From: Aurantiochytrium sp. KH105
Taxonomy: Eukaryota > Sar > Bigyra > Thraustochytrida > Thraustochytriidae
Direction: 5' to 3'
DNA length: 64,000 nt
Assembly: GCA_003116975.1 (NCBI GenBank)
Contig: BGKB01000002.1
Coordinates: 496,001-560,000 of the forward strand
The notes under the pieces were generated by a model. The model ran no database searches and was not told where the DNA came from. It was given only the letters and a program-made list of their open reading frames with translations. The position numbers and the translations under genes were made by a program. This document shows, piece by piece, positions 8,290-45,300 of the stretch (position 1 is the stretch's first letter; every line of letters begins with the position of its first letter).

Positions 8290-11200
8290 TTAGCGCCGCG
8301 CGCCGTTTGCCGGCGAGAGAATGCCCTTGGCATTGACGGGCGACAGAACGCCCTTGGGACGCGAGCCCTTGCTGGGACTCGTCTTTTGTGCAAGCAAAAA
8401 GCTGCGACGCTCCGTCGCCACCTCAAGCTTGGAGGAAATGGCCTGTCGCGTCCGCTCCGCATTCTCATTCTCGTTCTGCTGAACAGTCTTGACGACCTCG
8501 CGAGCGTGCGCAGCAACCATGGCAGACTTCTTCTGTGTGTCGCTAATGTGGTGAGAGCGACGCGTCTCGGCTTGGTTGAGCTTCGAGTCAATGCGCTCCG
8601 CCAATGCCTCGCGCTCGCCCTCCGAAGCACCTTGCTTGGCAGCGAGCGCGGCAGCGGCCTTTTCCACCACCTGAGAAGCCTTCGCCTTTTTCGATTCCAG
8701 CATCGCTTCACGAGAGACAGCCGCCTGCTCGAGACGGCCGTCCATGACGCGGCGGCGCTCGGAAGACTTGTGCGTCTGATCTCGCTTCAAGGCCTCCCCT
8801 GCCGCCTCGACACGCGCCGTGCGCGAGCTCGCCTTGGTCTGCTTCGAGTGCAGGACGCACCCGCGCGCCCCAGCAGCCGCGTCAAGACGACGATCCAGCT
8901 CGGCCCGACGCTCCTCCACCTCAGAAGCGCGAGCGTGCTCCGCGATCTTCACCTTTTCGTTTGTCAGCGCGGCCTTGGCCGCCACCTCGGAAAGCGCCGC
9001 CAGGCGTGCCTCGTTCGCTTGCTCCAGCTTGGCGTCCAGCACACGGCGTTTCGTCTCACTCAGATGCGCGTCGCGTTCGCGCACGGCAGCGCCTACGCCG
9101 GCCACACGCGAGGACTGCTGCGTGGCCTTTGCCTGCTTGAGCAGCAAAGCGGCTTCGCGGATCTCCGCAGCAACTTCGAGCTTTTGGTCCATCGTAATGC
9201 GCATCTCGCGCATTTTCATCTCCGTCTGGGCCTGCGCCTCGTCAACCTTGCGAATGTTGAGCGCCGCGCGGGAGGCAATCGACGCCAGCATCGACTCTCT
9301 CGCCCGCTCCGCCTGTCCGAGGCGTTGCGCCATCGCGGCGCGGCGCGCATCGGCCTCGGCGCGCTCGCGCTCGCGCGACAAGGCAGAAGCTGTTGCCACC
9401 TTGGAAACCTCCTGGTTCGCTTTCGCCCGCAGCCGTGCCACAGTTGACTCGCGCTTCTCTGCTGCATCCTGGAGCCGCTGCTCTAGCTCGCGACGCTTCT
9501 GGTCCTCGGCGGCGCCCAGCTGCCGCAGGCGGTCAGCAACGCGGCCCGTATCCTTGCCAGCGCGCTCCTTGAGATCCGTGAGCGCTGCGTCGCGCTTCTC
9601 GGCAGCATCGTTGAGCCGCTGCTCTAGCTGCTCGCGCGCCTTAGACGAGTCCATGCTCAGACGCTCACGCACGCCAACGTTGGCAGCTTCCACCTTGGCC
9701 GACTCGTCACTTGCCTTTGACTGCACAGCCGCGAGCTGGACCTGGCGCGCCGCATCAGCCTGCGCCAGCTTGCGATCCAGCTGTTCGCGCTTCACCTCTG
9801 CGGCCAGCTCAGACTGTCGGCGCACCTCATCGACGCGGTCGGCCTTGGCGGCTGCCTTGTCAGCGCGCTCCTTGAGCAAGCTTTCGCGCGACTCGGTCGC
9901 CTCCTCGAGCTTGCGGTCGATGCTCTCGCGCTGCTCTGCGGCGCGTTTTTCGCGCTCAGCAGCGCCCGACGCCACCTTGCGGGCTTCCTCTGCGGCACGT
10001 GCCGCTTTTTCCGAGAGAATCTCCTCGCGCGCTGCGCTGGCCCGCGCCTGCCGAGCCTCAATGCTCTTGCGACGTTCCTGAATCGCGTCTTGAGCGGACT
10101 CCTTGGCCCGCTCCACGCGGTTGCTCGTGCGTCGAGCCTTTCGCTTCTTGGCGTCGAGCGCCTCGGCCCGAGCCCGGGCTGCCTCGTCCAGCTTCGTCTG
10201 CACCTTTTCCAGCTGCTCTTTGGCGCGTTGCTCGCTCGTCTCCTGAACCTTGGCTGCGCGCTCTTGGGCCTTGGCTGCGCGCTTCACCTTCTCCTCCACC
10301 GAGAGCTCGCGCTGGTCCGCGGCGGCCCGCAGCTTCGAGTCGATACTTTCGCGACGCGCGGCGGCCTCGGCGGCTGCCGCTGCTGTGGCGCGCTCAACCT
10401 TGCGCGAGGCTTCTGCAGCCCGTGTCTTCTTCTCGGAAAGAGACTGCTCGCGGACCTCGTCGGCGCGCTCGAGTTTGTGCGAGATCTCCAGCTTGCGGGC
10501 GTTGGAGACCATCTCCTGCGTCTCAGTGGCGCGCGTAACCTTGTCATTGGCAGTCTGCGCGCGTGTGCGCGTGGCCGCAAGCTGGTCGGCGCGCCGCTGT
10601 TCTGCCTCGACGAGCTTGCATCCGAGCTTGGCGCGACGCAGATCTGTGTCGGCTTGGGCTGCGGCGTTGGCCATTTCCACGCGCTCGGACCGCCCCTGAG
10701 CACGGCCTCGAATCGAGCCCAGAGTTTCTTCACGGGATTCGGCAGCCTGTGCGAGCCGCTGCTCCAGCATGTCGCGACGGTCACGCGCGAGCTCCTGCTC
10801 GCGGTCGAGAGCGTCCGAGACCCTGCCGGTCGTGGTGGATGCACGTACCTGCACCTCATCCAAAAAGGACTCGCGCCGCTTGTTGGCTTGTTCGAGGCGG
10901 TCGTCGAGATTCTCTCGCTTTTCCTCCGAGTCGGCAGCCTGGGCCGCCAAGTTGCTCTGGTGGACCTCCTTGGCGTAGATCACGTTGGCGGCTGCGTTGG
11001 CCTGTTGCTGTTCGAGCAACTTGCTGCGCCGTCGGCTCGCCGAATTCAGCTTGTGCTCCAGCTGGTTCGCTTTTTCTGCGTTCTCGCGCTGCCTCGACGC
11101 CGAGTATCGCCTCTGTCTCTCCGAGCTCTGCCCGGCCTTTTCCTTGCGTGCGCTCAGGATCTCGCTGCGCTTTTCCTGCGCGCGTAGCAGCTTCTCCTCC

Positions 11201-11502
11201 ACGTCGACGCTCGTCACGCTGCCGCACTGGGAGCGCGTGGGACTTGTCAGTGCCGCGAGACGAGGGCTTCGCACCGCGCCAAAGGCCGAGGTCGCAGATG
11301 CTGACGACGACCGTCTTCCGCGCGTGGGCGTGAACATCGACACGTCCACCTCGATCACGCCTGGGCTTTGCGCGTCCACGTCCTGGCCCTCCTTCTTCGA
11401 CTTGCCAGCGCGGGGCGGCGTGCAAGGGACGGCCAGGGCCGCCGCCTCAGCCTCGCCTTCGCTGCTCGCCGCACCGTTCCGCGGCGACGCGGGCGCCTCC
11501 AT
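8290..11502 (-). CDS. giant protein of 20 tandem stathmin-like repeats
   Basis: 1070 residues, one exon. Residues 1-100 are disordered and rich in Ser-Pro/Thr-Pro sites (FTPTR, SPRL, TSPTR). From residue 101 to the end the chain is exactly tiled by 20 repeats: twelve of 47 residues, seven of 51 (repeats 2, 11, 13, 15, 17, 18, 19) and a 49-residue last unit ending in more Ser-Pro sites. Each starts with a form of LxxKLxxAxxxRxxxL (LDDRLEQANKRRESFL, IDSKLNQAETRRSHHI, ISSKLEVATERRSFLL). Animal stathmin has the same start (IQKKLEAAEERRKSHE) and, from memory, its second repeat begins 51 residues later. 47 and 51 residues are 13 and 14 alpha-helical turns, so all repeats keep one face. Stathmins bind tubulin dimers along a single long helix; I infer that role here. 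A plain coiled coil is the alternative. Two long frames on the opposite strand are shadows of the repeat. Confidence 0.85.
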   Translation of the reverse strand: MEAPASPRNGAASSEGEAEAAALAVPCTPPRAGKSKKEGQDVDAQSPGVIEVDVSMFTPTRGRRSSSASATSAFGAVRSPRLAALTSPTRSQCGSVTSVDVEEKLLRAQEKRSEILSARKEKAGQSSERQRRYSASRQRENAEKANQLEHKLNSASRRRSKLLEQQQANAAANVIYAKEVHQSNLAAQAADSEEKRENLDDRLEQANKRRESFLDEVQVRASTTTGRVSDALDREQELARDRRDMLEQRLAQAAESREETLGSIRGRAQGRSERVEMANAAAQADTDLRRAKLGCKLVEAEQRRADQLAATRTRAQTANDKVTRATETQEMVSNARKLEISHKLERADEVREQSLSEKKTRAAEASRKVERATAAAAAEAAARRESIDSKLRAAADQRELSVEEKVKRAAKAQERAAKVQETSEQRAKEQLEKVQTKLDEAARARAEALDAKKRKARRTSNRVERAKESAQDAIQERRKSIEARQARASAAREEILSEKAARAAEEARKVASGAAEREKRAAEQRESIDRKLEEATESRESLLKERADKAAAKADRVDEVRRQSELAAEVKREQLDRKLAQADAARQVQLAAVQSKASDESAKVEAANVGVRERLSMDSSKAREQLEQRLNDAAEKRDAALTDLKERAGKDTGRVADRLRQLGAAEDQKRRELEQRLQDAAEKRESTVARLRAKANQEVSKVATASALSRERERAEADARRAAMAQRLGQAERARESMLASIASRAALNIRKVDEAQAQTEMKMREMRITMDQKLEVAAEIREAALLLKQAKATQQSSRVAGVGAAVRERDAHLSETKRRVLDAKLEQANEARLAALSEVAAKAALTNEKVKIAEHARASEVEERRAELDRRLDAAAGARGCVLHSKQTKASSRTARVEAAGEALKRDQTHKSSERRRVMDGRLEQAAVSREAMLESKKAKASQVVEKAAAALAAKQGASEGEREALAERIDSKLNQAETRRSHHISDTQKKSAMVAAHAREVVKTVQQNENENAERTRQAISSKLEVATERRSFLLAQKTSPSKGSRPKGVLSPVNAKGILSPANGARR

Positions 11503-12794: not shown

Positions 12795-14513
12795 ATGGCC
12801 AGCGAAGCGCAACGTGTCGGCGACGCCGCCAAGCTCGCCCGCGAGGGCGCGCGTTTGCATACAGTAAGTCTTCCAGCGCGCCACGGCGTTCGCCGACCGC
12901 GCATCGACGATGAAGAATGACCAGCTCACGACGACGACGTCGACGACGACGACGGCGGCGACAACCTTTGAAACGACGCTACGCAGCAAGTGGGAGGGAG
13001 GTTCGTAACTGTACTCCGGCACCGCGGGAAGCTCTTCTGCTTTGACAGCACGTGCTATCATGCAGGAGGCCCTCTGGGAAATGGTGACATTGAAGATGTG
13101 AATGGCGAGCCATGTGTCGTGTGCCCGTGGCACATGTATCAGGTGGCCCTTGCCGACGGTGCCAAATACTATCAGCCGCTCATCATGAAGGACGGCAAGA
13201 TGAAACCTGGCGGCTGGAAGAAAAAGGAAAATGCCCAGCGAACACATCACGTGCAAGAGCGCCAGGACGGCGTCTATGTCACTCTCAATCTCGATGGCAA
13301 ATACGATTCCGACGAGTACGGAGGCATGTCTACGTGCGGAGGAAACTCTAATGCATCCAACAAGCCTGTGCACTCCAAGAGAAACTTTGCGCTGCCACGT
13401 CGAAGTGGTCACGTTTTAAGTGGGGCAAGCCCTGCGGCGCCGGGCATGCCCATGCCAGCCCCCATTGCTGCACCAGGAAGCATGCCAAATCCTGGTCAAG
13501 TTTCAACATCGCTGGCCAATCTTTCGACCCTTGACGTCGAAGAGGAGGCCGATCTCGATGATGAAGAAGACCTAGGTCTCATTGGTGCACAAAATGCCCG
13601 TACCGAGGGCTCTGCACGTTCTCGCGAAGACGACTGGACGCAACTCATTGTTGCCAAAAAGGTGCGCGTGAGCGAAGCTTGTGTATCGCTGTACCTTGAC
13701 GCGACCACGCTAGAAGGCAACGACGAGGTACTGCGCAAACTATACAGCATCGATGCAGACTTTGGGGACGGAACGATTGTCGATGTTGATGATCTCTTTG
13801 ACACGCGGCACCTTGACGTAGGTCTCGTTCTCGATGCAGACAGCGCCGAGCTCACGCACCGGCCCTATACGCCAGTGCGTTCGGCGAAGCGTAGCTTGAA
13901 CGCCTCACGTAAAGAGCACCTCATTCATCTCGAAATTCGCGTCTACCCCGGTGGCAAGCTGGGCCCACGCCTCGCCGCGCTCGAGCCAGGCGACAAGGTT
14001 TTTGCGAGACCAGGCACCACGCCTGCCGCAGACTCGCTCCTGGAAAAGGCCTTTCCGCCTCTTGCAGCCCTCACCAAGGTTTTTCTCTTTGCAGGGGGTA
14101 GCGGCATCACCCCGATTCTGCAAGTGCTGCAGAACTGCCTCGATGCTCAAGTCAAGCTCCAAATTACCATTGTCTGCGCGAACAAGACTCTCTCGCGGAT
14201 GCTAGGTGCCGACGCTCTCGGCAGTCTGGTCAACGAGGCCGCAAATCGACCGGAGATTACGCTCCGTGTGTTTCATGTCTTGACCGACGCTCAAGTCGCC
14301 CTTCCCTCGGATGTTGAGCACATCAAGTTCGTTCAATCTACGCGTGTCAATGATCTCCCCTTTTTGCAAAACAAGGTCGCGGTTCCGGCTCAATCTAGTG
14401 GCACTTCTGTCTTTGCATGGTGCGGGCCGCAAGGCTTCATGTCAGCGTTGCGGTCTTCGCTTGTGGAGGGACTGGGTGCCACGCCGCATCGTTGCGTTGA
14501 GTATCTCGGATAG
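12795..14513 (+). CDS. Rieske [2Fe-2S] domain fused to a cytochrome-b5-reductase-type flavin domain
   Basis: Two exons: 12795-12863, a 123-base GT-AG intron, then 12987-14513, giving 531 residues. The join gives REGARLHTQVGGRFVTVLRH in one frame. The Rieske domain (about 20-125) has the cluster ligands in CYH...CPWH, with the intervening loop of NirD-type proteins. After a disordered acidic linker (about 150-220) comes an FAD/NAD reductase half. Its RPYTPVR is the FAD-binding RxYT motif. FAGGSGITPILQVL is the NAD(P)H-binding GGxGxxP motif, and WCGPQGFM is the conserved CGP near the C-terminus. The protein could pass electrons from NAD(P)H through flavin to its own Rieske cluster, like a one-piece reductase plus ferredoxin. 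No signal or membrane segment is visible. The partner oxygenase or acceptor is unknown. Confidence 0.9.
12864..12986 (+). other. intron of the Rieske-reductase gene
   Basis: GTAAGT donor and ACGCAG acceptor, 123 bases, phase 0. It includes a GACGAC/GACGTC repeat (about 12925-12960). Without it the Rieske frame has no ATG. Confidence 0.85.
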
Positions 14514-14946: not shown

Positions 14947-15551
14947 GCCGCCTGCTCGTAGGTCGTTCGTCTCCTCGCCTCAAGAACCCGATGCCTGTTC
15001 TCGGTCTGGTGGGCTCGCAAGTTGAGATGAGACGTCGCTTGTGGTGAGACGAGACATACCTTCATACATTGTGGCTCTCAGAGTTCTCTTTTTTCTTTTC
15101 TTTTACTTCTTATCGAAGCTTGCTCTGCGTGCGAGGTTCACAGCTGAGTTAACTTGGTTCGAACGTACGTTGCTTTGTCGCAGGACAAATCGGGGCCTCG
15201 CGAGATCATCACGACCCAACTCAACTAGGTTTCTTTTTCGCAGCAGCAAAATGTTTGTCATCTTCGCCTTTGACCTCACCATCGACCATGGCGAGCGGTA
15301 TGAGGCAGCCTGCGCTCTTGCGGGCCACGTGCTGCTAACGCTCGCAGAAGATCTAGGCCTAGCAATGATGTAGCCTAAACAGTCGCCATCGCTGGATAAC
15401 ACCCGTGACCCTTATTTTAGGTGACCAAATAAGGGTCAACGGCTATACTCCAAATGTACATGACTTCTTCGAGTCCGTCATCTTGGATCAAAGCGCAAGA
15501 GAGACCGACCGACATGTCCGCAATCCGTGCCCACTCAAAGGCCGCGGAACG
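14947..15551. other. intergenic/5' region before the JHY-like gene
   Basis: A 40-codon frame with an ATG at 15251 and the part of the next gene's open frame that precedes its first ATG (15405-15551) lie here. Neither has visible homology. The short frame could be an upstream ORF or a first exon. Confidence 0.5.
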
Positions 15552-17234
15552 ATGAAGAGGTCGAGGGCCGGCCATCATGGTCACGGAGGTAGCGGTGGCG
15601 GCGGTGGCGCCCAGGTAGGCCGAGCTGGGGCCGGGACAAGCAGCTTCCAGGCCAAGTTTGGCCAGCGTATCCTGAAAACCTCGGGCGATGGCTCGTACGT
15701 GCGCCTGCACGCCCCAGCATCTCGAGAAGGACCTCTCGCTACAAAAACATCAAGGGAAGCACTTAAACAACAGCAGCGAGAGCGCCAATCAAGCGGGCAG
15801 CGGCCGGAACAAATGCGAAAAGACTTTGGCAAGGCCACGTTTGCAAACATGCCCGCTTCCTCAGCACACCGCTCGCCAGTTTTAAGCTCAAATTTGGTGA
15901 ACTCGCCGAGAGAACCCTCTGACCCATATAAGACAAGTCTTCCTGCTGTCCGCGCTTCCATGCCAATCACGCAAATTTCCAGCGAAGCTTCCGCAGCGTA
16001 TGACGTATCTTCGCGCGTCCAAATTCGGTCTCTTCCCGAAAGAAACTTCTCGCAGGTCTCAGGCCCTCCTGCTGCAAATGAAGCTGCCGGACTCCAGTGG
16101 AACGCCCAGACTTCCATGCATCAAAAGGATTTTTCTCGGCCAAGCCTCGCCGATTTGCGTCACGCTGTTCAAGGCGCAATGCCAAATCCGCCATCACCCA
16201 GTGTCAATCGTCAGCCATCGCAGTGGTCACCTTCCCGCCAGCCTTTGAAGGAGAGTCCTTCTAATGCCGCTGCAAAACCAGGAGGTTACATGCATGGATA
16301 TGCACACATGCATGCGCAGCCTTCGCGCGAATGGCAAGATCAATCTCAAAAACAGTATATCGACTCGTACTCTGAACTTCCTCAGCAGCGTCAAGGCTAT
16401 CAGTATCAGTATCAGCACGCGTCGATCGATGCATCTGCAGCTGCTTCTGCTCAGGGAGACGAGATGCGTCGGCCCCGACCAAGGAAACATGATCCAGATG
16501 TCTTTGCCGCCGAGGATGATGACAAGCAGGAAGAGCTCCCGCCAAAGGACGTTATCAATGAGCGTCTTGTGAAAAGCGAAAAAGACCGTCTTTTCTACAG
16601 TCGAAAACACCGGACCGTGTCATACAAACCGTGCACAACCAAAGAGTATCTGAAAAACAAGCCTGAAAAGTATTACGAGCTTGGTAAGCTCCAGGCCGAT
16701 CTCAACACAGAGGAGGTTGCCAAAAAGCGCGAAAAACTCGAACGCATGAAGTCATACGGTGCCAAACTCCGTGCGCTAAACAAACAGCCCCCGTCGCCAA
16801 TATCAACCGCAGCAGCCGCGACGCTCGCTGGGGGTTCGTCGCAAATGTACAGTCAGCCTTTGACTGGGGCGCGTGATGGTTCACAAGCATTCAATGGCAA
16901 TAATCAAGAGGAAGACGCTCTTGCGAATCAGGGACGAAGGGTTTACCAAGGCCAGCACCCAGCGGTAAGGGAGCAGGCGCTTCGGGAAAAGCGCAAGGCG
17001 CAGTCTGCGCGACAGCGAGCTCTGGAGTTTGCCAAGAGCGTACCGAAACCGCGGGTTCGCGTCACAAAGACGCCAACTGCAGAGTCGTGTAAAACATCTG
17101 GCTTTGCCTCGCCAGCCAGAGACAGGGTTTCTGGTCAGGAGATTACTGAGCTTGAGCGCCTGGAGCTCGAGCACGATCGCGCTCGGGAAGAAATTGAAGC
17201 CATTCGACGAGATTTTGGAAACTCACAGAGCTAG
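15552..17234 (+). CDS. JHY-like (C11orf63-type) protein, probably cilium-associated
   Basis: 560 residues from the first ATG. Most of it is disordered and rich in Ser, Gln and Pro. The ordered block is near residues 312-410: RLFYSRKHRTVSYKP, TTKEYLKNKPEKYYELGKL, DLNTEEVAKKREKLERMKSY, then GAKLRALNK. This order (YxP[CY]TxxxY, then LGxLxxDL, then KxxRMKxY and LRxxN) is what I remember of the C-terminal block of animal JHY, a protein needed for ependymal cilia. A second helix sits at the C-terminus (ERLELEHDRAREEIEAIRRD). The frame is open 5' of the ATG to 15405 but starts there with GTG. The family match is from memory and moderate. Other ciliary coiled-coil proteins are possible. Confidence 0.55.
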   Translation: MKRSRAGHHGHGGSGGGGGAQVGRAGAGTSSFQAKFGQRILKTSGDGSYVRLHAPASREGPLATKTSREALKQQQRERQSSGQRPEQMRKDFGKATFANMPASSAHRSPVLSSNLVNSPREPSDPYKTSLPAVRASMPITQISSEASAAYDVSSRVQIRSLPERNFSQVSGPPAANEAAGLQWNAQTSMHQKDFSRPSLADLRHAVQGAMPNPPSPSVNRQPSQWSPSRQPLKESPSNAAAKPGGYMHGYAHMHAQPSREWQDQSQKQYIDSYSELPQQRQGYQYQYQHASIDASAAASAQGDEMRRPRPRKHDPDVFAAEDDDKQEELPPKDVINERLVKSEKDRLFYSRKHRTVSYKPCTTKEYLKNKPEKYYELGKLQADLNTEEVAKKREKLERMKSYGAKLRALNKQPPSPISTAAAATLAGGSSQMYSQPLTGARDGSQAFNGNNQEEDALANQGRRVYQGQHPAVREQALREKRKAQSARQRALEFAKSVPKPRVRVTKTPTAESCKTSGFASPARDRVSGQEITELERLELEHDRAREEIEAIRRDFGNSQS

Positions 17235-32402: not shown

Positions 32403-35400
32403 CTAAGCCCAAGCCTTGACGATGCCGTCCCTGGAAGCCGAGAGCAAAAGACCAGTCGACGCACGCTGCGTCAAAGTCCCTCCGAGTCGCGATGGCGCGG
32501 CAAGAAAGGCGAGATCCAGGATCGCGTCTTCATGATTCGTCGAAGGATGGGGGAGACCTCGGCCTTCGGCAGAAAATTGAGATTGCTGGCGCTGCGCCGG
32601 CTGCGCTTGTCCAATGGCTTGGTGACCAGCAATGTCTTCCCGGCAAACTACGACCTTGCCAAGTCGATCCCAGTGCTGGTTCACGGACCTGCCAAATTCC
32701 TGGTCAAACACCGAGTAGCACAGATTGTGATCTTGATTCCAATAACGAATGCGTCTGTCAGTACCCGCGGTTATGACTGTCGTCGGAATGTGCGCCATGT
32801 GCTTGCGCACATCCGACATGTCAAATGGACAAACAATCGCCCGAACAGAAGGCTCCATGCGAGCCGTCGACGCGTCGAGCTCGTCCACCGCAAGCTGACT
32901 CCACATGGGTTCAGGGATCGACGGATTCACCTCGAGAGCACGCACGTCAATTTCCTCAAGTGGGGCATCCGCAGTGGCATCTTTGCCCTTGACAGAGGTA
33001 GGAACTGTCCGATAGGAATGCACCATGGCCCCGTCCGACACATTGTACAGTGACGTGGAGTTAACCCCGGCAGCAACATATACAAAGGGATCGCTGCACG
33101 TGGCGCGCGATAAGTAAAGTCGATGAATTCGAGAGTGGCTTGGGTGGCGCCACGCCTTGAGCAAAATGGAGAATCGTAAATCGTAGAGGAGAATGACACC
33201 ACGCGAAGTCCCTGCCACGAGCCAAATTGGGTCCCCCTCAGGAGGCACCGCCAGCGCAGTAATCACACCAGCCTGCGGCCCAACGCGTAGCACCCACGAG
33301 CGCTTTCGGGCACGCAGGTCCCACCCATGGACTGCGCCAGACTCGCTCGCGCACACCAAAACGGACTCGCTCACGGCAGGATAGTGACAAATCGCTCGAA
33401 CAGGACCATCGCGCGCCAGGTTCAGCTCCAGCACAGTGCTGGCGCCCAAGCTCCGTTGTTGCGAGGAACCCCGCTGGGTTCCGTGCGAGAAGGACTGCGA
33501 GCTCGAAGAGCTCGAGTTCGCGCCCACCCCCGGCACAGTGCTCCCACTCGCACCGGCGCCAGGACCAGCATTGCTGCCCATACCGCTGACAGTGGTTCCA
33601 ATACTCGTGTTCCCGTTACCATGAGCCCCGCCGCCTGCCAAGCCTGCGGAAAGAGAGCCACGAGCATTGCGTTCTTCGCGCATTGCGGCGTCTGCGGCCG
33701 ATCGCGCGTGGGCGTGACGCGCTTCCGCCTTGTCAAGGAGAAGATCCTCAGACGTACCATCCCCAGAATTGATTACCACAGAGCTCGATGGGCCCCCCAT
33801 CATGTCATTGGGGTCGACGGCAGCTCGAGTTACATCGAGAGCGTGCTCCACTTTGAACACATGGACGCTCCCACTGGTCGACGCTGCGGCAACCGCATGC
33901 GTATTTTCCACAATGCACAAGTCCGCAATGCATCCACCTTGACTGGCGTACGTTAGCTTTGGGCGGATCCCGTAACCATCCTCGAGCCCAGCCGTCATCC
34001 AAAGACGCACCGTGCCATCATCGGATCCGGTTGCGAAGAAGAGATTGTCTTGAGAGGCAACCACGCGATTGACCGCGTTGTCGTGGCCGTACAGATTTGC
34101 GGCCAGAACCCCACGCGGCCTCCAAGGCCGATCGTTTGGGGTAGAAGCCGCATCACGCGTCGAACTTGCATCCGCTGGCTCAAGTAGGCTTCCAACCTCA
34201 CTTGAAGGCCGGCGCACGGTCGCCACGTACGGCGTGCCATCGAGCTTGCGCAGCGTCGCCATATCTGGCGGGAGCGGTGGGACTTCGAGCGCGCGAATGC
34301 GCTGCGTAAGGCGTTGTTGTCCACCGGAGAGCGCCTCCGAGGTGTCTGCGGCCCCTGCTCCGTGCCGACGAGAGAGCGCTACGATTCCGTAACGATTCAC
34401 GATGCGCTTAAAGTCCGGATGTTGGTGCTGCAAGAGCAAACCTGGCCCCGCTGTAGAAGCGGATTGGTCGAGAAAATCGGCATAACGACTGTGGATCGCG
34501 AGCGTCACATATGTCTGCTCTGGAACGAGGATCGCGTGTAAAGCCGCGTCGTCGGGCCCGCTGCGTAGACTCCGCACAACTGTCTCAGGAATTTCCTTTT
34601 CCAGCTCCATGAGTCGTCCCCGTGTACCTCGAGCAAGACTTGCTGAGGCCTTGAAGAAACCTTCGAGAGCTTTCAAGCCCTGCGCGTGGTGTGGTGGAAG
34701 TTTTTGCGCGGCCATAGCGCCTGCGTTCTCGTCGCCGGCATTTGCAGATGAAGAATCCGATTTCTTCGGCGTTCGATGGGACAGCTTTAGCCAGGTAGAC
34801 CCAGTCCCGGAACTAGAGCTTCCCGCGACGGCGCTGGCATCTCCAGGAGCGGCCGACCTTGACCTACTCGACGCGGACTTCGACGAGGTTTGACCCGCAA
34901 TACTTGTGGTAGTCGAGCTGGACGACGCCGACGCCGAAATTGATGGTGAAGACGACGTCGGAAAAGAAGGTGTGCCAGGTGGCAGTTTGCTTGGTGTCTC
35001 CTTCGCTGAGCGACTTCTTCCTGCCTCGCTCGATTTGGAGGATGCCTGTGGGAAAGCTTTCTTTTCAACACGTTCTGCGGCAGCCTCGTAAACATCGCGA
35101 GGCAGACGGTCCACAAGCATTTCGCGAAGCAAGGCTTCATTCTCTTCAACATTCTTGGAACAGCCCAACAGTAGGGCATTTCGCGCCTCGGATTTCTTGA
35201 GATACGGCTCGATTAGACGCACAATGGTGACTTGCGTCTCGACAAGGCCCATCCGTTTTGAAGCCACAAGGGCAGCGAGAACTCGAACCACCGCATTCCG
35301 AATCCAAACGCTTGGATGGTACACGAGCGGCCCCACCTTAGCAGCGAGCTCAGACATCATTGTGACATCGAGAAGACCCAGCTGCGTGAGGCTGTACACG

Positions 35401-38318
35401 CAGGTCAGCGTACGCTCCACGACCAGCTCTTCAAATTCGTAAAGGCTCTGCACAATGCATGGAAGGAGGAACTGCTGAAGCGCAAGCGGGCCGACAAGCG
35501 CACTCACGCCTGGAATGTGCTCGAAAAAGGTGGCTCGAAGCTGCCAATCGTTACGCTCGCTGAGGCATGTAATGAGAATTGGCAACACGTGGCTGCTTGT
35601 GCGCTCGCGACCGAAAAAGAGACAGAGCCGCGTAATGTCGCAAAGGAGGGTGCGTCGCACCACCGCGGGCTGTTCAATCATATTGCTCACAAAATCCTGC
35701 ACAATGTCGTGCAGCTCGTTGAGCTGAGCGTCAAAAGTAACAGGCTTGGCAAGAGCATCGTCACCACTCTTGCCCTTGCCCCGAATTGAACTGCTCGACT
35801 CTCTGCCGGTGTGACAATCCGCCGCGTCGCTGTTGCTCAGATCCGCGTGCAGCCGCGCGAGATCAAGAAATCGCCCGCTCGCCTCGGCAAGACGGGGCAA
35901 ACACTCCGCAAAGGTTAGTCGCGCATTGAGCGAGGGATCCATTTTGAAGCGAGCGAGCGCAGGGAAAATGTACTCGGGGAAAATCCGACGGTCCGAGGCG
36001 GGCAGACGTTTGATCTTGCGCACGAGATCTGTAAGAGCGCGCAGGGCCGTGCAACGGACCAGGGACGAAAACTCGCGAGACGAGGACTCGCAGAGCTCGT
36101 GCACAACGTATGGAAGGACTCGCTGGAGGCGCGTTTCGTCGTTGCTGAAGCGAGAAAGTCGTAGCAGCGCACACAGAGCAGCAACCTTGGTGCTTGGGAA
36201 GCGAACAAAGCGTATTGTGGCCGCAAGCATATGAATCACAATGAGGACCCCGTTTTCTCCCGCCGGAATGTTCAGTGCAGACGGACTTGCAGCGTAGCTG
36301 TCACTCGTGGCCTCAACTCCACGAGCGCCCGGACCACCCACAAGGAAAAAATCCTCTCCACCTCCGGAGAGACTCCCTGTAAAATCTAGAGGAGGTGGTG
36401 GCGGGGCAGCGCTGTACTGCTTTGAAAGAGCATCATATTGCAAGCTCACGTTCTCGCTGGCGCTCGTCACCGCCGCTCGCATTTTGTCAGAAACATTCAA
36501 ATCTGCGAGCTGGGCCATGATTTTTTGCGTACGCGCGAGTAAGTCGCGGACAGCCTCGTTGTCCCCGCGTGAGGCTCGTGTGCTTTCCTCCCCACCCCCG
36601 CCCGTGGACCCGCGCGAACGTTCTGATCCCGCGCCGCCGTCGCCGTCCAAGTCGTCTTGCACCGACCGCATGGGCGAGTCCTTGAGACTGACGTCGAGAG
36701 CGGCATGGCGCGCAGCCCACGCTGCGCTCTGCTGCGCAAAGTAAGCAGCACCGCGCTTGTCGTGGATATTACATAGAGCAGAGACAAGCTCCTCGTATCT
36801 CCTGCAAACGGCCCATATGCGCTCGTCCGGCGAGTCATATTCCTCCTGAAGAAGCTCACGAAAGAATGGGTGGAGAACATCAGCAAAGTAGCTTGGAAAT
36901 GCCTTGTTGGGACCGGTGAATTCCTGCAAATACACATCTGCAGATTTCCGTTGCGAAGGATCAGCCTGTAGCATGCTCTCAACCAGTGGGCGTATCAGGG
37001 GATCGGTCACTTTGTCCAATTTGGACTGAAGAAGCGTCGCTCGAGCATCTGCGCCCAAATCTGGATTAGCGTAGCGCAGAACTTCTGACAGATTAAAGCA
37101 CGCTGCACCGTCCATGTAAAGCTCCGCGATGACGCATCCAAGCGAGAAAATATCCATTGAGGGTCTCAGTCTCGTTGAACGACTCTGCGTGTCAAAACTG
37201 TAGCTCCTTTGACGGCGGACGAGACCCTTGGGAGCATTTCCTCTCCCCGGAGGCGACGCAGTTGCAGCTCGTCCCTGACTCGACGAGGAAACAGCGGAAG
37301 AGCCAGCAGACCTCTCTGGAATTGACGGAGTGGCTGTGTTGCCAGAGGATGATCCCGACATTCCTGCCGCCAAACGAGCGCCGGCGCCACCTGCGCTCGC
37401 CGTGGACGTACCAAGACTCTTGGGACCGCTGTTGCCGCTTTTGCGGAGAACTTTGCTCCCGCCACCACCCATGCTGGCCTCGCGAGAAGCGCCTGCACTT
37501 CCACTGTCGCCACCCTCCGCAAGGCCATCTCTTTTGGCTGCTGCAGCCCGATCTTCAGCCTCGAGCGAAGCAGACGCTTCTGCAAGCTCGAATTCTGCAT
37601 CAACGTCGGGGACGCCAGGGTCCATCATGACACTGAGAACAGAGGCGCATTGCGGTGGAGCCGAGTCGAGGAGTGAAATGTCAATGATCGACGTTGGTGA
37701 ACGGAAGCGCTCAGGCGCGACACAGCAGCAGTCGCGCTTGTTACTCGAGTCGAAAAAGTAATTGTATGGTGCAGTGTCATCGAGAGGAAGGAAAGTTGGC
37801 TTGTATGGAGCAAAGTCGGCAAGTAAGACCCACGTGTGCGAGGTAACGAGAAAGTTCTCCGCTTTAATATCCCCGTGTACAATGCCGGACCCGTGACACT
37901 GTGACAAAGCTTTGAGCATTTGATATACGATCCATCGCTTCTCCATGGGGGCCAAGAAGGGGCGTGTGTTTTGCCTGTCGTGCAAGTTGCTCGATGTGAA
38001 CTGCCGCATCACATACGCGACGCGACTCGTTTCGCCCCATCGTGTGTACGCGAGGACATTAGGATGGGTGGCTGGACGCACCTGCTCGCGAAGGTCCTCG
38101 AGTTGTTTGCGAAGTTTTCGGAGAAGCTGCGGGTCGGTTGCAGGTATCTTTTCATACACCTTGACCACGAGAACGTTGCCGCTCGACTGACACCGCGCGG
38201 ACTTGAGGAATTTTCCATTCCAAAGCTCGTCCTGGAAGAGAAGACGAGAGTCGTCGATGGACGCAACGAGTTGTTGTGGTTCCTCGCCCGCGCGTCCCGT
38301 AGGAACCACGTTGCCCAT
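32403..38318 (-). CDS. PIK3R4: VPS15/PIK3R4, regulatory kinase subunit of the class III PI3-kinase complex
   Basis: 1971 residues from the Met at 38318. It starts MGNVV, giving the Gly2 myristoylation site of VPS15; an in-frame Met at 38342 would bury it. The kinase domain has VKVYEKI (Lys), MRQFTSSNLHDRQNTRPFLA (typical VPS15 text), HGDIKAENFLVTSHTWVLLA and DFAPYKPTFLP. The family normally has HGD and DFA in place of HRD and DFG. An unusual Ser/Gly/Ala-rich insert of about 165 residues (about 215-380) separates APERF from DIFSLGCVIAELY. Helical HEAT repeats cover about 700-1050, a Ser-rich linker about 1060-1200, and WD40 repeats from about 1400 to the end (LYGHDNAVNRVV, FATGSDDGTVRLW). VPS15 scaffolds VPS34 and Beclin to make PI3P on endosomes and autophagosomes. 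Human VPS15 is 1358 residues; the extra length is linkers and inserts. Confidence 0.96.
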   Translation of the reverse strand: MGNVVPTGRAGEEPQQLVASIDDSRLLFQDELWNGKFLKSARCQSSGNVLVVKVYEKIPATDPQLLRKLRKQLEDLREQVRPATHPNVLAYTRWGETSRVAYVMRQFTSSNLHDRQNTRPFLAPMEKRWIVYQMLKALSQCHGSGIVHGDIKAENFLVTSHTWVLLADFAPYKPTFLPLDDTAPYNYFFDSSNKRDCCCVAPERFRSPTSIIDISLLDSAPPQCASVLSVMMDPGVPDVDAEFELAEASASLEAEDRAAAAKRDGLAEGGDSGSAGASREASMGGGGSKVLRKSGNSGPKSLGTSTASAGGAGARLAAGMSGSSSGNTATPSIPERSAGSSAVSSSSQGRAATASPPGRGNAPKGLVRRQRSYSFDTQSRSTRLRPSMDIFSLGCVIAELYMDGAACFNLSEVLRYANPDLGADARATLLQSKLDKVTDPLIRPLVESMLQADPSQRKSADVYLQEFTGPNKAFPSYFADVLHPFFRELLQEEYDSPDERIWAVCRRYEELVSALCNIHDKRGAAYFAQQSAAWAARHAALDVSLKDSPMRSVQDDLDGDGGAGSERSRGSTGGGGEESTRASRGDNEAVRDLLARTQKIMAQLADLNVSDKMRAAVTSASENVSLQYDALSKQYSAAPPPPPLDFTGSLSGGGEDFFLVGGPGARGVEATSDSYAASPSALNIPAGENGVLIVIHMLAATIRFVRFPSTKVAALCALLRLSRFSNDETRLQRVLPYVVHELCESSSREFSSLVRCTALRALTDLVRKIKRLPASDRRIFPEYIFPALARFKMDPSLNARLTFAECLPRLAEASGRFLDLARLHADLSNSDAADCHTGRESSSSIRGKGKSGDDALAKPVTFDAQLNELHDIVQDFVSNMIEQPAVVRRTLLCDITRLCLFFGRERTSSHVLPILITCLSERNDWQLRATFFEHIPGVSALVGPLALQQFLLPCIVQSLYEFEELVVERTLTCVYSLTQLGLLDVTMMSELAAKVGPLVYHPSVWIRNAVVRVLAALVASKRMGLVETQVTIVRLIEPYLKKSEARNALLLGCSKNVEENEALLREMLVDRLPRDVYEAAAERVEKKAFPQASSKSSEAGRSRSAKETPSKLPPGTPSFPTSSSPSISASASSSSTTTSIAGQTSSKSASSRSRSAAPGDASAVAGSSSSGTGSTWLKLSHRTPKKSDSSSANAGDENAGAMAAQKLPPHHAQGLKALEGFFKASASLARGTRGRLMELEKEIPETVVRSLRSGPDDAALHAILVPEQTYVTLAIHSRYADFLDQSASTAGPGLLLQHQHPDFKRIVNRYGIVALSRRHGAGAADTSEALSGGQQRLTQRIRALEVPPLPPDMATLRKLDGTPYVATVRRPSSEVGSLLEPADASSTRDAASTPNDRPWRPRGVLAANLYGHDNAVNRVVASQDNLFFATGSDDGTVRLWMTAGLEDGYGIRPKLTYASQGGCIADLCIVENTHAVAAASTSGSVHVFKVEHALDVTRAAVDPNDMMGGPSSSVVINSGDGTSEDLLLDKAEARHAHARSAADAAMREERNARGSLSAGLAGGGAHGNGNTSIGTTVSGMGSNAGPGAGASGSTVPGVGANSSSSSSQSFSHGTQRGSSQQRSLGASTVLELNLARDGPVRAICHYPAVSESVLVCASESGAVHGWDLRARKRSWVLRVGPQAGVITALAVPPEGDPIWLVAGTSRGVILLYDLRFSILLKAWRHPSHSRIHRLYLSRATCSDPFVYVAAGVNSTSLYNVSDGAMVHSYRTVPTSVKGKDATADAPLEEIDVRALEVNPSIPEPMWSQLAVDELDASTARMEPSVRAIVCPFDMSDVRKHMAHIPTTVITAGTDRRIRYWNQDHNLCYSVFDQEFGRSVNQHWDRLGKVVVCREDIAGHQAIGQAQPAQRQQSQFSAEGRGLPHPSTNHEDAILDLAFLAAPSRLGGTLTQRASTGLLLSASRDGIVKAWA

Positions 38319-39301
38319 GGTCGTCCTCGCGCGACTCTCCAAGACCCTATTGTTTTGTCTAAAAGGGCTCTGCTACAACGCGCTGCAGTTGCCGTCTCCC
38401 AGCCCGAACTCCGAAAGCTCTCCAGCTGGGGCCGCGGTACCGGTCGGGGATGGGGTGACTAGAGCTCGGAACGGCCTTCGCCTGTGGCCTGCCGGCCGTT
38501 CTCGCGCGCCCTGGTTGCTCGGCCGCGCCGCACGGCCGCGTCGACACCGAGTCTGTGAAGCGGCTTTGGTTTCTCCTCCTTCGGGTCTCGCTTGCAAAGA
38601 TTTTCCGTAACGAGCGAAACCGCGCGGTGAAGAAACGTCTTTTTAGACCTTTTTAATAGGTCGTTTTCCCCCTTGTCGCGTGAAGTCTTTGCTTCAAGGC
38701 TTGCGTGTAGAACGTCATATCAAATGCACGCGCGGTTGCTGCTTACGGCGCGCGCTGTAGGCACGTCTTCCATTCTCTTGCTTGAGGCACCCTTTCTGCA
38801 ATGCCATCTCTCTAGACAGACTCATTTTGCTACCGAGGCACGATCTCGGCCTTGCGAGATCGGTATAGGCCTTCGCATATGCACGAGTGAATGTGGAAAA
38901 GGATCAAGGAGGCAGACCTTGGCTCAATCTGTCTCCAAACCAATGTAAATCAGGCCTGACTGTCTATGAACTCCACAGCCACATTCCCAGGCTAGCCTTT
39001 ACTGTTAGTATATGGAGGTTCACCGAAACGGTGTGTACTCCAAGCGCGGTTGAGGCTCGGAAACTAAATAACCAAAAAGTGGACACCGCGCGGCGCGGTG
39101 CGGCGCGGGGTGGGGCGGGGAGCCGCGCCCCGCTGCACGTTGCAGGCATTTCCCAGAGCGCTCTGCAGTGTACGGGTGAGCGCGACCCAGTTGTGCGCTC
39201 GCGTGAGAGAGCGCTATATACCGCACTGGTGTGCAGCGCAAGGCGGTACAGTGCAGAAAAGGTTGGCGCTCTCAGATTTCACTGCAAGCAAAATCAAAAG
39301 A
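38319..39301. other. divergent promoter region of VPS15 and the giant scaffold gene
   Basis: About 1 kb. GC-rich on both sides, with GGGGCGGGG-type runs near 39095-39125. GCGCTATATACC at 39211-39222 is a possible TATA box about 85 bases before the scaffold ATG. The scaffold's frame is open back to 39098, but that stretch begins with GTG and is Arg/Ala-rich, so it is treated as untranslated. Confidence 0.55.
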
Positions 39302-42300
39302 ATGCAGCGACGAAGACGGACGCAACGCGCAAAGGCAGCCGTCGTCTCGCCGAGCCTTGGGTCTCCCTCGCCGGGCGCGCCAGAAAGCGATGGGAATGGC
39401 TTCTCTGCGACAGCAAGCGTCTTGCAGCAAGGTATTCCCGAGTACGACGCCGTGAGCGATGCATATTGCACTTATACCGACTCCAAGTCTTTTCGCGCGT
39501 CTCCGTACTTTAAGCTCACGGTAGCGCCGCAGCAAAGCAGAGCAGCTCAGGAGGCCGACCTTGTCGAGGAGGTGCTCCGTCGACGAGAGGTCAACCAATA
39601 TAATGCAGTGCGTGACGATGCGAGGCGGCCTGCAAAAGGACAACAAGCAAGTATTTCAGGCTGTGTCGGCTCATTAAAGCGCCCTCGCCCAGACGCGATC
39701 GAAACGCGCTCCCCAGGAATGCCACCACCCGGCGTGCATGCATTTTCACCCTTGGGACCTGACAAGCCAGGCACAAAGGGATCAGCAGCAGGGTCGCGAG
39801 AGCTCTACCTCATGAAGCTTGCTTTTTTGCGCGAAGGACTCGTCGAAGACATCAAGCGCAAGTTTAATCGCCTAAGGGCTATCATTGAACGAGGTGTCGC
39901 CTCAGAGCGCTGGACCGCAGCGGCAGTTGAAGCACATGTGAATGCGGCCGCCTTGGCGATGCGTCCGGCTCTCGAGCTCGTGCAAAAGCGAAGCGTTCAG
40001 GTCACAGAAGCCGTGCAAGCCTGGCGCGCAGAGCTCGGAGATCGATTTGCTCGCTTCACGTGGCGAGATTACAATTATCTTCTTAAGATGGCTGCGGATC
40101 TCGACTTTCTGGGGCAAACATTGCCAGGTGGGCGCGCAAATATACTCGACGGACTTGGTCTCGCTGCAGAGCGCAATCCGCTTCTCACAACTGTCGATCT
40201 CGACGCTCTGGCCGACCAACAACATGCCGCTCAGTCGCCAAACTGCATGCAGTTCCATGCGATTGTGGATGCGGAGACGGCCGAGCAGGACGCCGCACTC
40301 GATGCCAAGGAGCTCGAGGGTCTCGGCGAGGCGCTCGAAGGCTGCGTGTCACCGTTAAAACCTGTACCACCCGGAGAGGGCGAGCCTATTTCTCGAGCGC
40401 GACTCGAACTTGCTGCCGTGGTTCTATTGCAAGAAGAAAGAAGGTTTGGACGATTCGCCGAAGTGCCATCGCATGGGTCCGGGGGACGTGAGGGCTTCGC
40501 GTGTTCTAGCCAGTTTCTTCCTCAGTTTCGTACCCACGGGCCGGCTTCGGCTCGGGAGGACACCCTTCATGAGTCTCTTGAGGATTTGAGTCCTGGCATT
40601 GGCCAAGCTGGAATCCTCACGTTGGCCCAAGACAGCCCCTCGCGTCCACCAAGGGAACGGTCTGAGAAGGCGCTTGACAAGTGGGCATTGCCCGTTCAGC
40701 GTGAGAAAAAGATCAAACCGAGGCGTGAGCTTCGTCGCGCTCTCGAGGTCGAAGGCCTCACTGAGCTGAGTCTTCGAGAGCTTGCGAGACAACCCTCAGA
40801 GCTGGCCCAGGGCGTTCTTGGTGCGGTGCGGGTTCTCCTGCTCAACCCGCGCGAGCCCCTACCCCCACGCAGTGAGTTCAAATGGAATCGTCTCGTAGGA
40901 GAGCTTTTGCAAAACCCTACGCGGCTTTTGAGACGGCTCTCTCTATTTCAGGGGCAAAGGGACATTTCCGTGTCTCGCGCCAAGTTTCTTCGTCCCATTT
41001 TCCAGGACGAACGCTTTGATCCCGCGCGCGTTCGTCATGTTAGCCCAGCTGCTGCCCAACTGTGCATTTGGTGTCTCTCAAAAGCGAGCAAATTTGTTTT
41101 CTCCGTTGAGCACTGCTTTGACTTTACAGCGCATCTGGAAAACACGGCGGACCGTTCGTCTGCACTGATCTCGGGCTTGAAACAGGAAATTCGAGACATG
41201 AAACAGCACATTCTTGGAGAAAAAGCCACGCGCGACCTCGCAGCTGCTAAAGTACTCACTGTGCAAAAACCTCCGCGTGCTAGGCTCCAGATTAAGCACT
41301 TCATCGTCGAGCAACCGCGCGAAGAGCCGGAAAATGTCATTGTGTGGCAAAGAACCCAAAATACTAGCAAGGCCTGCAAAGCAGGTGCAGAAGAAGAAGA
41401 AGACATGACACCACCCGCGGGGGCAATGCGGGTTACAGCGGCTTGCGTCCAGCGCGCGACGCAAACGCACGTGTACGAAGCTGCTTTCAACGCGGCAGAT
41501 CGCGTTCATGGAAGCAAACCAAGCGCTTCTGCCGACATTGTCAAGAGTGAAGACATTGACGCCAGCAGCGAGAATGGCGCCAGGGACGCGGCTGATGAGG
41601 AAAACATTCGCATAGCCGGCAAGCCCAAAGCACAAAGGGTCGCGTTGACGGAGAAAATCGTATATCTGGCCGGATCCGTGGTGGCTGACGAGGGCGAGTT
41701 CATCTGGCGCGGAGGCGTTCATCATCTCGGTTTCGGGTGCCTTTTGGCCACTGTGCACCGCATGCAAGATCCCGAGCGCGAATTCAGAATTTCGACTCTT
41801 CACGTAAAGACCGGGAAAAAGGAGACTGTTCATTTGCCAGGAACCTTTGTGCGAACGCTGTTGGCGTTGCATTCGGGAAATGGCGATGGCGCACAGAAAT
41901 TTTTACTGGGTCTGATCGATTGCCGAATGACTGCGACCATGTGTCGTGCGCTTGTTCGCATGCGTCACTCCTGCACAGTGATCATCCCGCACCCTCGCTT
42001 TGGGCTGGAAATTTCTGGTGTGCGCCTCAACATGCAGCTCAAGGTGGGCCGAAACGGTGACGTCCTCATTGAAGCCCAAGAACTCACCGGGGACGATTTG
42101 CCCGGCGGCGACATGCGACCTGGTTTTCCGCTATTGACGACGACAATTCCTTACGAGGAACTGAAAGTTCTCGGCATGCCGAATGTGGCGAGTCTTGTCG
42201 ATCGGCTTGAGATTCACGCGTCAGGAAACACAGACGCGCGCACGCTAGAAATGAGTCCTGTATTATTCCGCGAGCAGGACATCTATGTGAGTGGTTTCCA

Positions 42301-45300
42301 TGTCGACACGCTGACCGTATCTATGCGAGAGCGTGGTGCTACGATTCGCATCGAGGCTCGCGTGCATAAAGTTGGTGTATTGAAGAAAGAGGCCACCTTG
42401 CAGAGCTTCAAAGACGAGCTTGATCACGCGTTCTTGACCCTACAAGAGCTGACCAATGGCGATGATCGAAGCGCCAAGGCTCTTATGGGTCTCGACAAAT
42501 ACCCAAACCGTGTTGCCGCAGAGACCATCCTGGATCGTTTGATTATCCTTCCATGGCCCGAGAATCGCACAGGCCAGCGACTCGAATTCGCCTCGTGGCA
42601 GGAATGTGGTCTACGCATGCAGGTACGCTTGCACAAGATTGAAATATGCCAGATTCTTGTGGGTCCGCGCAGCACACTCTTCGACGCGAGGCGACAAATC
42701 GAGCAAGTGGCCAGCATCAAGTCGCAGCAGCTCCAAAGACCCGAGACGGAGCGTATCCCGAGCAAATTTCTCTTTGTGCAATGCCCTCACAAACATGAAG
42801 AAGTCGTGTCTTCCGCATTCGACTTTTTTCCGACGCTCGAGATTCACGCTGTCGAAGAATACAGCGAAGACGAGAACAGTGATGACGGAGAAGACGGCGA
42901 TGACGCAGATTCCTTTTTTGCGCTGCCCAAACCGGAAGGAGATACTCGCAAGAAGCGCAAGAAGCGTCGGCGTCGGCGTCGCAAGAAGCGCGTTGACTTC
43001 TTGGCTCACCTCATGGAGCGTCTGGGGCGAAAGTCCCCAGAGGAGCTCGAGGCCGAAGAAGAAGCACGCCGTCTCGCAGAGGAGAAGGCTCGCAAGGCAG
43101 CCGCTCTCGAGGCCAAACGCAAGGCCGAGGCCGAGCGTCGAAGGCGAGAAGTCTTTTTTGAGGAACTTGTTCAGCTTCCCGGAACTGTGAGCGTGCGACG
43201 AGGTGCCAAGTACTTTACTCCGAGTGTTGACCTGGTGGATATTCTTGAGCGCGGAGATCGAATTGAAATCGAAGGGATCCGTGCCATGGTCTCGAAAAAC
43301 AAAAAGACACAATTCGACCCGTGCACGGTCCCTTTGGCAAAGCCTTTCGACGTTCAGCCACCGGCAAAGACGGCTCTCACTGAAGGCTTTGACGACGATA
43401 CGCTCGAGCTTGCGCACACGCAAGATAGCAGCGAGGGTGGCGAGGACAGGAATGCGCAAGATGCACTCGAGAGCAAAGAATCAGCAGACGCGCGTATTGG
43501 CAGCGCGGCTAGCAAGTCATCACGCGGGGGAATTATCGAAGAGGATCTAGACATGGGTGATCAGGCCAAGGAGTATGTTGATGTCGAGGCCTTTCGCGTT
43601 GTCCGCTCGCCTGGGAAAGCCATCGAGATCAAGAACGGGTTTGTGAGCATCGAAGAAGGCTCTCAGCGGCTTGTCACTCATGCAGATCTCCGGTACAACC
43701 TGCATGTGGGTGACTTTATCCGTCTGGACGACCGCGTACTCTTGGAGCTTTCCGACGACCCGGAGGATCCCTTTGAGCCCGACTATTTGACGCTGAAGGA
43801 GCCGTTTGCGAAACCGAGCATGGAGCATGTCCGTATTCAGCGCGTGGTGGTGATGGAGCTTAGCGAGAAAGAAAAGGAGAAGTCACTGCTGCAAAAGCAA
43901 AAGCAGGAGCAGGCTGAAAAGTTGCGCAAGGCTCGATTGGAGGAGGAAATGCGCAAAACCGAGACATTTTTCAAGTTCACAATGTCGTGGCGCGAGCTTG
44001 TTCCAATGCTTGGCACGGGACCTCTGCATCCGCGACAGCAGGATTTCTGGGACCAAGTCTCGCTGGAATTTTCAATTCGGGCCGTCTTCAAGATGCTCTG
44101 TACGCAATGGTACCCTCCGTCAGAAGGTCTTGACAACGGCAAGTTTGTCAAATTTCTTCGGGAACTCCCTGGGGTCATCAACGACAGGTTGACGCCAACT
44201 GAGGTCGATCTTATTTTCGCTCGCGCCAAGGGTCCGGCCGAACGCAAGCTCTCGATGAGGTCCTTTCTCGATAGTGCTCTTCCCGAGGTGGCCCTCGTTC
44301 ATTTTCCGTGGCTGGACGAACGCCCTGCAGTACGCAAGTTCATTGAGACCTTTATCTTAGACTGGAAGGAGTGCAAGCGCCTCAAATGGGCAGAGGCAAA
44401 GCGCCTTGCTGTGGTGTTTGAGGCAAAGCGACAATGTGCGGCCAAGGCGATTCAAAAGATCGTCCGGGGGCGCATATCGCTAAAGGCGTACAAGATCAAG
44501 CGGGTCGCTACGATCCGTCTACAAGCGCAATTTAAGTCGTTTGCTTTTCGAGGAACATTTCTGAAAAAAGTGGCTCATGTCAGGCGTGCTCGAAACATCA
44601 GAAAAGAAGAAGCAAAGTCGATCCGCGAGGCACGGACCAAGTCGCGTATCTATGCGCGCGCGCATTTGATTTCCGGGACGTGCAACATTATTACGATTTC
44701 CAAGCATATCAAGGGATCCATCATGATTCACTGTTATCGGCCTACGGACTGCGAGACGAATTCTTTCACGCTGACCCTTGACGAGCTTCGCACGACAGTT
44801 GAGGACGCCACGAACATTAGCAACTACACGGACGAAGATCTTTACAAGAGCGATTGTCTTCGCTTCGCGCTGCAGCGTCTGCAATACCGCAAGAGAGGCG
44901 ATGAATACGCTCTCGTGCTTGGTCGCAAGGCTTCCAAAGAAACGGGGTCCAAGCTCCTACGGCAAGGCGTCTACGTGGTGGCCACGGACCGCACCAAAGT
45001 ATTGCACATCGTCACGATTACAGAGGAACGTGGGGAATATTCTTTTCATGCATACAACCCGGTCTCAGGAGAGATCAAGTCTGTGCTGCTGAGTCGCAAA
45101 AATTTGCACCAATGGTTCAACTACAATGAAGACGCCGATGCCATCACTCCGCCTCTTTTGCGTCCGGAGCGACTACCTGACCTCTTGCAGTATCTTGTGA
45201 AGCGCCTCATTTTGTGTCGCGCCTGTGGACTCGAGACGCACCGAGCAATGCACAAGCGCGGCGACGATGTCCTCATGCTTGAGTGCGATGTCCAGGAGCA

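Follow-up and report, generated by a model that had tools for sequence, protein, structure and literature searches.

Organization of the 20-repeat gene

The DNA analysed here (the window) is a 64,000-nucleotide stretch of the genome of Aurantiochytrium sp. KH105 (contig BGKB01000002.1, positions 496,001 to 560,000), whose minus strand carries at 8290..11502, stop codon included, an uninterrupted open reading frame (ORF) for a protein of 1070 amino acids. The protein contains 20 helical repeats, which resemble those of stathmin and, more closely, the N-terminal region of a TCP11 protein encoded in the same genome. Judging from its sequence, it is a real, constrained and old 20-module helical protein of the stathmin/TCP11 N-terminal kind; it is not securely placed in the stathmin family.

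Three regions can be distinguished. A Ser/Pro-rich N-terminus (residues 1-100; 11203..11502, minus strand), modelled without secondary structure, contains six SP/TP sites, at residues 6, 28, 46, 58, 79 and 87. It is followed by the helical array, whose 20th and final unit is partial (residues 101-1041; 8380..11202, minus strand), and by a Ser-Pro-rich C-terminal tail (residues 1042-1070; 8293..8379, minus strand), which was also modelled without secondary structure and has three SP sites, at 1042, 1054 and 1063. Every one of the nine Ser/Thr-Pro sites lies outside the modelled helix, six before it and three after it.

The units were defined by the anchor pattern [LIMV]xx[KR][LQ]xxAxxxR. A scan of the 1070-residue protein located 20 anchors, starting at residues 101, 148, 199 ... 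1022, which are spaced by 47 residues in 12/19 cases and by 51 in 7/19, with no other value. According to this spacing, units 3-10 (9781..10908, minus strand) are eight 47-residue units in succession. The coordinates, the frame and the 20 repeat starts of the LxxKLxxAxxxR kind that had been proposed in an initial annotation of the window are borne out by the scan. The same annotation had tiled residues 101-1070 with 20 units, and the 47 and 51 spacings of that tiling were recovered, but its last "49-residue unit" is partial: the helix continues for ~20 residues (1022-1041) and the remainder is the Ser-Pro-rich tail.

In the unit alignment, in which the four-residue gap was placed after position 33 and counts of 20 include the tail of unit 20, positions L/I/M/V1, K/R4, A8 and R12 are present in all units (20/20), and Leu5 in 19/20. 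Other conserved positions are L16 (17/20, the rest being V or I), K/R22, A23 and K/R29 (18/20 each), R49 (16/20) and V30 (14/20). Information over the 19 full units averages 1.48 bits at positions 1-33, compared with 0.80 at positions 38-51, and the module consists of ~33 conserved residues plus a variable linker of 14 or 18 residues. The identity autocorrelation of the protein peaks at lags 47 (0.213) and 98 (0.200), while the top value of 200 residue shuffles over lags 20-159 was 0.150. Proline is absent across the 941 residues of the array (101-1041). Identity between units at third codon positions is 0.354, where composition predicts 0.327; since the silent positions are near the composition level, the repeats appear to be old and held by protein-level selection, and not to be a recent DNA satellite.

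A near-identical second copy of the gene is found on contig C8 of the 76-Mb assembly (the window gene is on C2), and is most simply explained as a second haplotype. The assembly as a whole seems to represent each haplotype by contigs of its own. Between the copies of this gene, 50 of 3213 bases differ, of which 40 were scored as synonymous and 10 as non-synonymous (dN/dS 0.083). Seven of the 10 amino-acid changes are inside the repeats and none affects positions 1, 4, 5, 8, 12, 16, 22, 23, 29, 30, 33 or 49; one of them, T895S, falls at the weaker column 27. As the allele differences are mostly synonymous and the key positions are spared, the ORF is a protein-coding gene under constraint.

Helix shape and periodicity

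AlphaFold2 predicted units 17-20 as one unbroken helix with a mean pLDDT of 94.7, using an alignment of five such segments of the same protein. A helical hairpin solenoid or bundle was also considered and is not supported, the model of units 17-20 being a single unbroken helix. The full-length model, produced without an alignment, is of low confidence (mean pLDDT 57.5), and shows helices between residues 102 and 1039 with gaps. These gaps are at 190-191, 221-239, 598-619 (with a short helix at 602-605), 788-803, 880-894 and 955-960, and five of the six sit within 51-residue units (2, 11, 15, 17 and 18), a length that 7/19 full units have.

Hydrophobicity over the 941 residues has a period of ~3.62 residues with a power of 20.6, the best of 300 shuffles in the 3.4-3.9 range reaching 10.2. 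The power at the 3.5-residue heptad period is only 2.7, and the apolar stripe of a canonical coiled coil is not seen. In fragments of stathmin and RB3 the maxima lie at 3.62 and 3.625 residues per turn. With a turn every 3.62 residues, a spacing of 47 makes ~13 turns and one of 51 ~14, and both roughly preserve the face; each repeat would rotate a heptad stripe by 154 degrees (47) or 206 degrees (51). A canonical coiled coil, which the initial annotation had expected if its stathmin reading were wrong, is therefore disfavoured by the sharp 3.62 period and the little power at 3.5.

Resemblance to stathmin

The repeats were compared with 24,736 Pfam families and with 177,635 distinct sequences of the Protein Data Bank (PDB). 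With the whole protein as query, stathmin (PF00836) was the sole Pfam family matched (18.9 bits, E 0.0016). When 19 overlapping doublets of units were used, stathmin appeared in 10/19 and was the top family in five of those 10, and none of the other families recurred in more than two of the 19. The highest score was obtained by units 19-20 (residues 971-1042, spaced 51; 8377..8592, minus strand), with 24.5 bits (E 3e-5) for their own stretch and 25.5 bits (E 1.4e-5) in the longer stretch 8293-8616, this being the only one of the 19 doublets that exceeded the PF00836 cut-off of 24.7 bits. Units 11-12 (residues 575-672, also spaced 51; 9487..9780, minus strand) were second, the stretch 9487-9804 scoring 23.3 bits (E 6.9e-5).

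The two stathmin repeats correspond to positions 47 and 98 of the PF00836 profile, 51 apart. As judged from the end points of the alignments, 9/10 matching doublets align unit position 1 with profile position 47, the next unit with 98, or both; doublet 9 is in the stathmin register at its C-terminal end only. Doublets 3, 5 and 10, which have the 47-residue spacing, align to the stathmin profile with a net gap of exactly four.

A profile built from ten doublets that do not overlap and have mixed spacing (A5) matched 19 PDB sequences at E<=10, and all 19 are stathmins, with a best E of 0.46 and a range of 0.46-1.1. Each match spans 88 residues, and the three alignments shown are without gaps. 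Eighteen of these sequences are named Stathmin-4 (RB3) and one Stathmin, so the 19 matches are not independent. A stathmin query finds 22 stathmin-type sequences in the same PDB set, 19 of which were recovered by A5. Two control profiles, in which the polar columns were permuted and the apolar pattern was retained, gave no PDB match and five unrelated matches, respectively, and Pfam stathmin was found in none of the members of either control (0/10 and 0/10), compared with 6/10 of the real doublets. Using a hidden Markov model (HMM) of the doublet, the bias-corrected scores of stathmin and of RB3 were each equalled by 0/4000 pattern-keeping shuffles. With the doublet profile, RB3 and stathmin were second and third of the 699 sequences listed, after one of 1000 shuffles of a TCP11 fragment. 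The initial annotation had named as its test a stathmin score above that of shuffled sequences or generic coiled coils; the permuted controls lose stathmin, the test did not refute the stathmin reading, and at the level of sequence comparison the in-register likeness to stathmin is specific.

A search of the repeat protein against NCBIfam returned nothing. In prokaryote genomes and in IMG/VR, 80 and 52 pattern matches were found, respectively, none of which was confirmed by tblastn as a relative.

A TCP11 relative in the same genome

In a genome-wide search with PF00836 at E 10, the two copies of the 20-repeat gene were first (21.3 bits), the two copies of a second gene followed (18.2 bits), and the next gene had 12.6 bits. 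Seven candidates of the genome were scored against PF00836, none of which was over the cut-off, and no further stathmin-like gene was detected, although intron-split genes may escape this search. The second-ranked gene is located on contig C61 (~380413-383523, plus strand; L017:2914-6024), with a second copy on C129. Its 1037-aa frame encodes a TCP11 protein (PF05794, 3.2e-12), in which the Tcp11 domain lies downstream of an N-terminal helical region.

This N-terminal region contains IEGKLRAAEERRMRILNDIRERAR, which fits unit positions 1-24 including R22-A23, and a second copy of the unit, whose A8, R12 and L16 are located 51 residues before those of IEGKLRAAEERRMRILNDIRERAR. A third, weaker unit is found after a Ser-Pro-rich stretch, and Ser-Pro-rich stretches adjoin the TCP11 helices; taken alone, the third unit is no better than shuffles (695/3000 reach its score). 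The doublet model gave corrected scores of 21.3 bits to a 74-aa TCP11 fragment and 19.3 bits to a 170-aa fragment, with 0/4000 shuffles reaching the corrected score. The 74-aa alignment is ungapped and has the 51-residue offset; its uncorrected full score was met by 1/4000 free shuffles. These fragments were cut once the motif was known, and the uncut 1037-aa frame is not listed by the doublet model. By hhalign, the TCP11 N-terminal fragment had a probability of 46.9% and an E of 2e-4 over 50 columns with a three-residue gap, values obtained without a shuffle control. The 74-aa fragment alone had no Pfam stathmin match, and the 170-aa fragment had a weak one (18.1 bits).

The genome has one other TCP11 gene (C6/C15), whose 822-residue frame lacks the unit motif, and the 20-repeat protein has no match to the Tcp11 domain (PF05794) up to E 10. 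A plant TCP11-like N-terminal fragment of provisional sequence scored 32.4 bits with the 51-residue offset (0/3000 shuffles), and is to be taken as a lead and not as a test. By both measures run on these sequences, the TCP11 N-terminal region is a nearer relative of the repeats than stathmin, and the likeness to it is, as with stathmin, a specific one. No tubulin binding by TCP11 is described in the literature surveyed, which was covered by title and start of abstract.

Genome context and neighbouring genes

A radial-spoke gene was found in the genome (157 bits), and the organism therefore probably makes flagella. A search of the genome for tektin detected none, although introns may conceal such a gene. 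Also in the window, a single ORF at 12990-14513 (plus strand) joins Rieske-type ferredoxin and NAD-binding oxidoreductase domains, and an ORF at 15405-17234 (plus strand) has a Jhy domain (E 5.1e-13), of a cilia-related family. The ORF at 32403-38342 (minus strand) encodes a VPS15-like kinase of 1979 aa that includes helical and WD40 regions. The ORF at 39098-46522 (plus strand), of 2474 aa, has a WW match together with TPR, p25-alpha and dynein-stalk matches that are below the cut-off or borderline. Elsewhere in the genome, pieces of PfaA-like polyunsaturated fatty acid (PUFA) synthase are present on contigs C72/C155 and C61/C290, with scores of up to 930 bits, below the 1010-bit cut-off of the model, and are in keeping with a thraustochytrid-type organism.

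Interpretation and alternative explanations

The explanation that we tentatively prefer, with less than even confidence, is that the gene encodes a cytoskeletal scaffold, in which 20 modules of the stathmin/TCP11 N-terminal kind are carried on one long amphipathic helix that probably binds tubulin. By analogy with stathmin, each module would dock one tubulin heterodimer, through a putative stripe formed by L1-K4-L5-A8-R12-L16-(K22-A23)-(K29-V30)-A33. One chain could then gather many dimers and serve as a tubulin store, a sequestering factor or a delivery scaffold, and the gathering of dimers could be regulated through phosphorylation of the Ser/Thr-Pro sites on either side of the helix. Docking to tubulin seems to us most likely because the repeat length is 51 residues or about one turn less, the stripe is shared, and the K-L-x-x-A-x-x-x-R site is present. 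Common ancestry, tubulin binding, one dimer per module and regulation are what we infer beyond the repeats themselves, the selection on them, their predicted helicity, the 3.62-residue stripe and the sequence resemblances.

The weak point of this scaffold reading is the spacing. Dimers in a straight protofilament are ~82 Å apart, and the rise of an alpha-helix amounts to 70.5 Å for 47 residues and 76.5 Å for 51, so the 47-residue spacing (12/19) is short for a row of tubulin dimers. With this mismatch, a rigid helix could not carry 20 dimers in an end-to-end row, unless the poorly conserved linkers became unfolded or the row was strongly curved. A flexible necklace is accordingly likelier than the protofilament ruler suggested in the initial annotation.

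Several other results also weigh against a tubulin-binding relative of stathmin. The whole-protein score (18.9 bits) is below the PF00836 cut-off, the genome search with PF00836 had no match at E 0.001, and the PDB E-values of A5 are not significant alone. Only A5 recovered stathmin from the PDB: the whole protein, the 19-unit alignment (A1) and the alignment of seven doublets (A2, 4/7 members of which match Pfam stathmin) did not, and A2 gave five unrelated sequences. The single-unit profile misses stathmin, the ranks (17th and 69th among the 467 sequences listed) not being significant. Against one stathmin sequence, hhalign gave a probability of 2.3% over 18 columns, in register, where the permuted controls had 0.2%. 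Of the free shuffles, 8/4000 met the uncorrected full score of stathmin, and 4/4000 met its corrected best-domain score; the uncorrected full score of RB3 was met by 4/4000 pattern-keeping shuffles. Chance family matches near E 1e-3 do occur at such composition, as seen for Phasin (0.0013, doublet 3) and for Apolipoprotein (0.0006, permuted control). The N-terminus has no strand or tubulin-capping beta-hairpin in the low-confidence full-length model, and TCP11 N-termini are not known to us to bind tubulin. The stathmin-like identity originally proposed is thus retained in part: stathmin is the only family found in more than two of the 19 doublets, but the whole protein stays below 24.7 bits, the PDB matches have E >=0.46, and the TCP11 N-terminal relative had been missed.

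Since the TCP11 fragment is nearer to the doublet model than stathmin (21.3 bits against 12.6 and 13.4; hhalign 46.9% against 2.3%), the protein could be a structural array of the TCP11 N-terminal type of helix that does not bind tubulin but another partner, such as an axonemal, basal-body or membrane-trafficking protein, and its likeness to stathmin could be remote homology or convergence without a common function. The K/R22-A23 pair, which TCP11 and the units have in common and in place of which the stathmin sequence compared reads Q-L and R-L, points in the same direction, as does the 47-residue spacing, which differs from that of stathmin. We consider this rather unlikely, given that the stathmin match is specific among all the Pfam families and PDB sequences searched and is lost on permutation, and that the 51-residue offset common to stathmin and the TCP11 fragment is judged hard to obtain by chance. 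A generic long rod acting as spacer or ruler, be it a coiled coil that associates with itself or a single stable alpha-helix, would account for the all-helical prediction, the 941 residues without proline rich in A, R, E and K, and the continuous helix modelled for units 17-20. Acid-to-base i+4 pairs are also in excess (48 against 36.5 in shuffles); base-to-acid pairs, however, are not (29 against 36.9). Hendecad-type straight coiled coils would be compatible with the data, but the heptad periodicity is low and the heptad stripe would turn between repeats, and the recurrence of the invariant A8 and R12 at intervals of 47 or 51 residues favours a docked partner, making a generic rod improbable.

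Least probable by far is an amphipathic helix coating lipid droplets or membranes, with repeats of the perilipin-4 type, in an oil-storing protist. PUFA-synthase-like genes are present in the genome, and weak Pfam matches to Phasin and Apolipoprotein were obtained for two doublets each, but the Apolipoprotein match was better in the permuted control (E 0.0006) than in the real repeats (best 0.0036). The mean hydrophobic moment is low (0.20, with a hydrophobicity of -0.05, in 18-residue windows), and the apolar face is broken by the invariant Arg12 in the stripe and by the poorly conserved stretch 38-48.

A broader proposal, which extends the tubulin scaffold and which we regard as doubtful, is that stathmin, the TCP11 N-terminal region and the 20-module protein share one ancient helical module of ~51 residues, near the length of a tubulin dimer. 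The 20-module protein would be its extreme form, gathering about twenty dimers, and such TCP11 proteins would be unrecognised tubulin binders in several eukaryote groups. If true, a natural 20-module protein would represent a new order of tubulin store or scaffold, and its connection with the TCP11 N-terminal region would give a poorly understood family a function in tubulin binding and would suggest that the stathmin module is far older than animals.

Comparison with known systems

The TCP11 N-terminal region is similar to the 20-repeat protein in having the unit with R22-A23, the 51-residue offset and Ser-Pro-rich stretches beside the helices. It differs in architecture, as the TCP11 protein has two clear units, a weak third one and a C-terminal Tcp11 domain, where the window protein has 20 units.

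In stathmin-tubulin complexes, one helix holds two tubulin dimers through repeats 51 residues apart, and stathmin carries phosphosites before its helix. Stathmin and RB3 (PF00836) have in common with the window protein two helical repeats 51 apart, the K4-L/M5 ... R12 motif and the 3.62-residue stripe, as well as Ser-Pro sites ahead of the helix. Stathmin is switched by phosphorylation (PMC8945549). The differences are the number of repeats (two against 20), Leu and not Ala at position 23, and the spacing, which is 51 in stathmin and 47 in 12/19 cases in the window protein. No natural multi-repeat stathmin is described in the literature surveyed by title and start of abstract, largely outside bioRxiv and subscription journals, and the stathmins known to us hold two tubulin dimers, rarely more.

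The closest parallel for the tandem multiplication of this kind of module in one chain is PDB 4f61, "Stathmin-like domain R4" (240 residues), which we take to be an engineered four-repeat construct made from RB3 repeats, and which was not among the 19 sequences matched by profile A5. That chain is man-made, whereas the protein encoded in the window is natural, diverged and several times longer.

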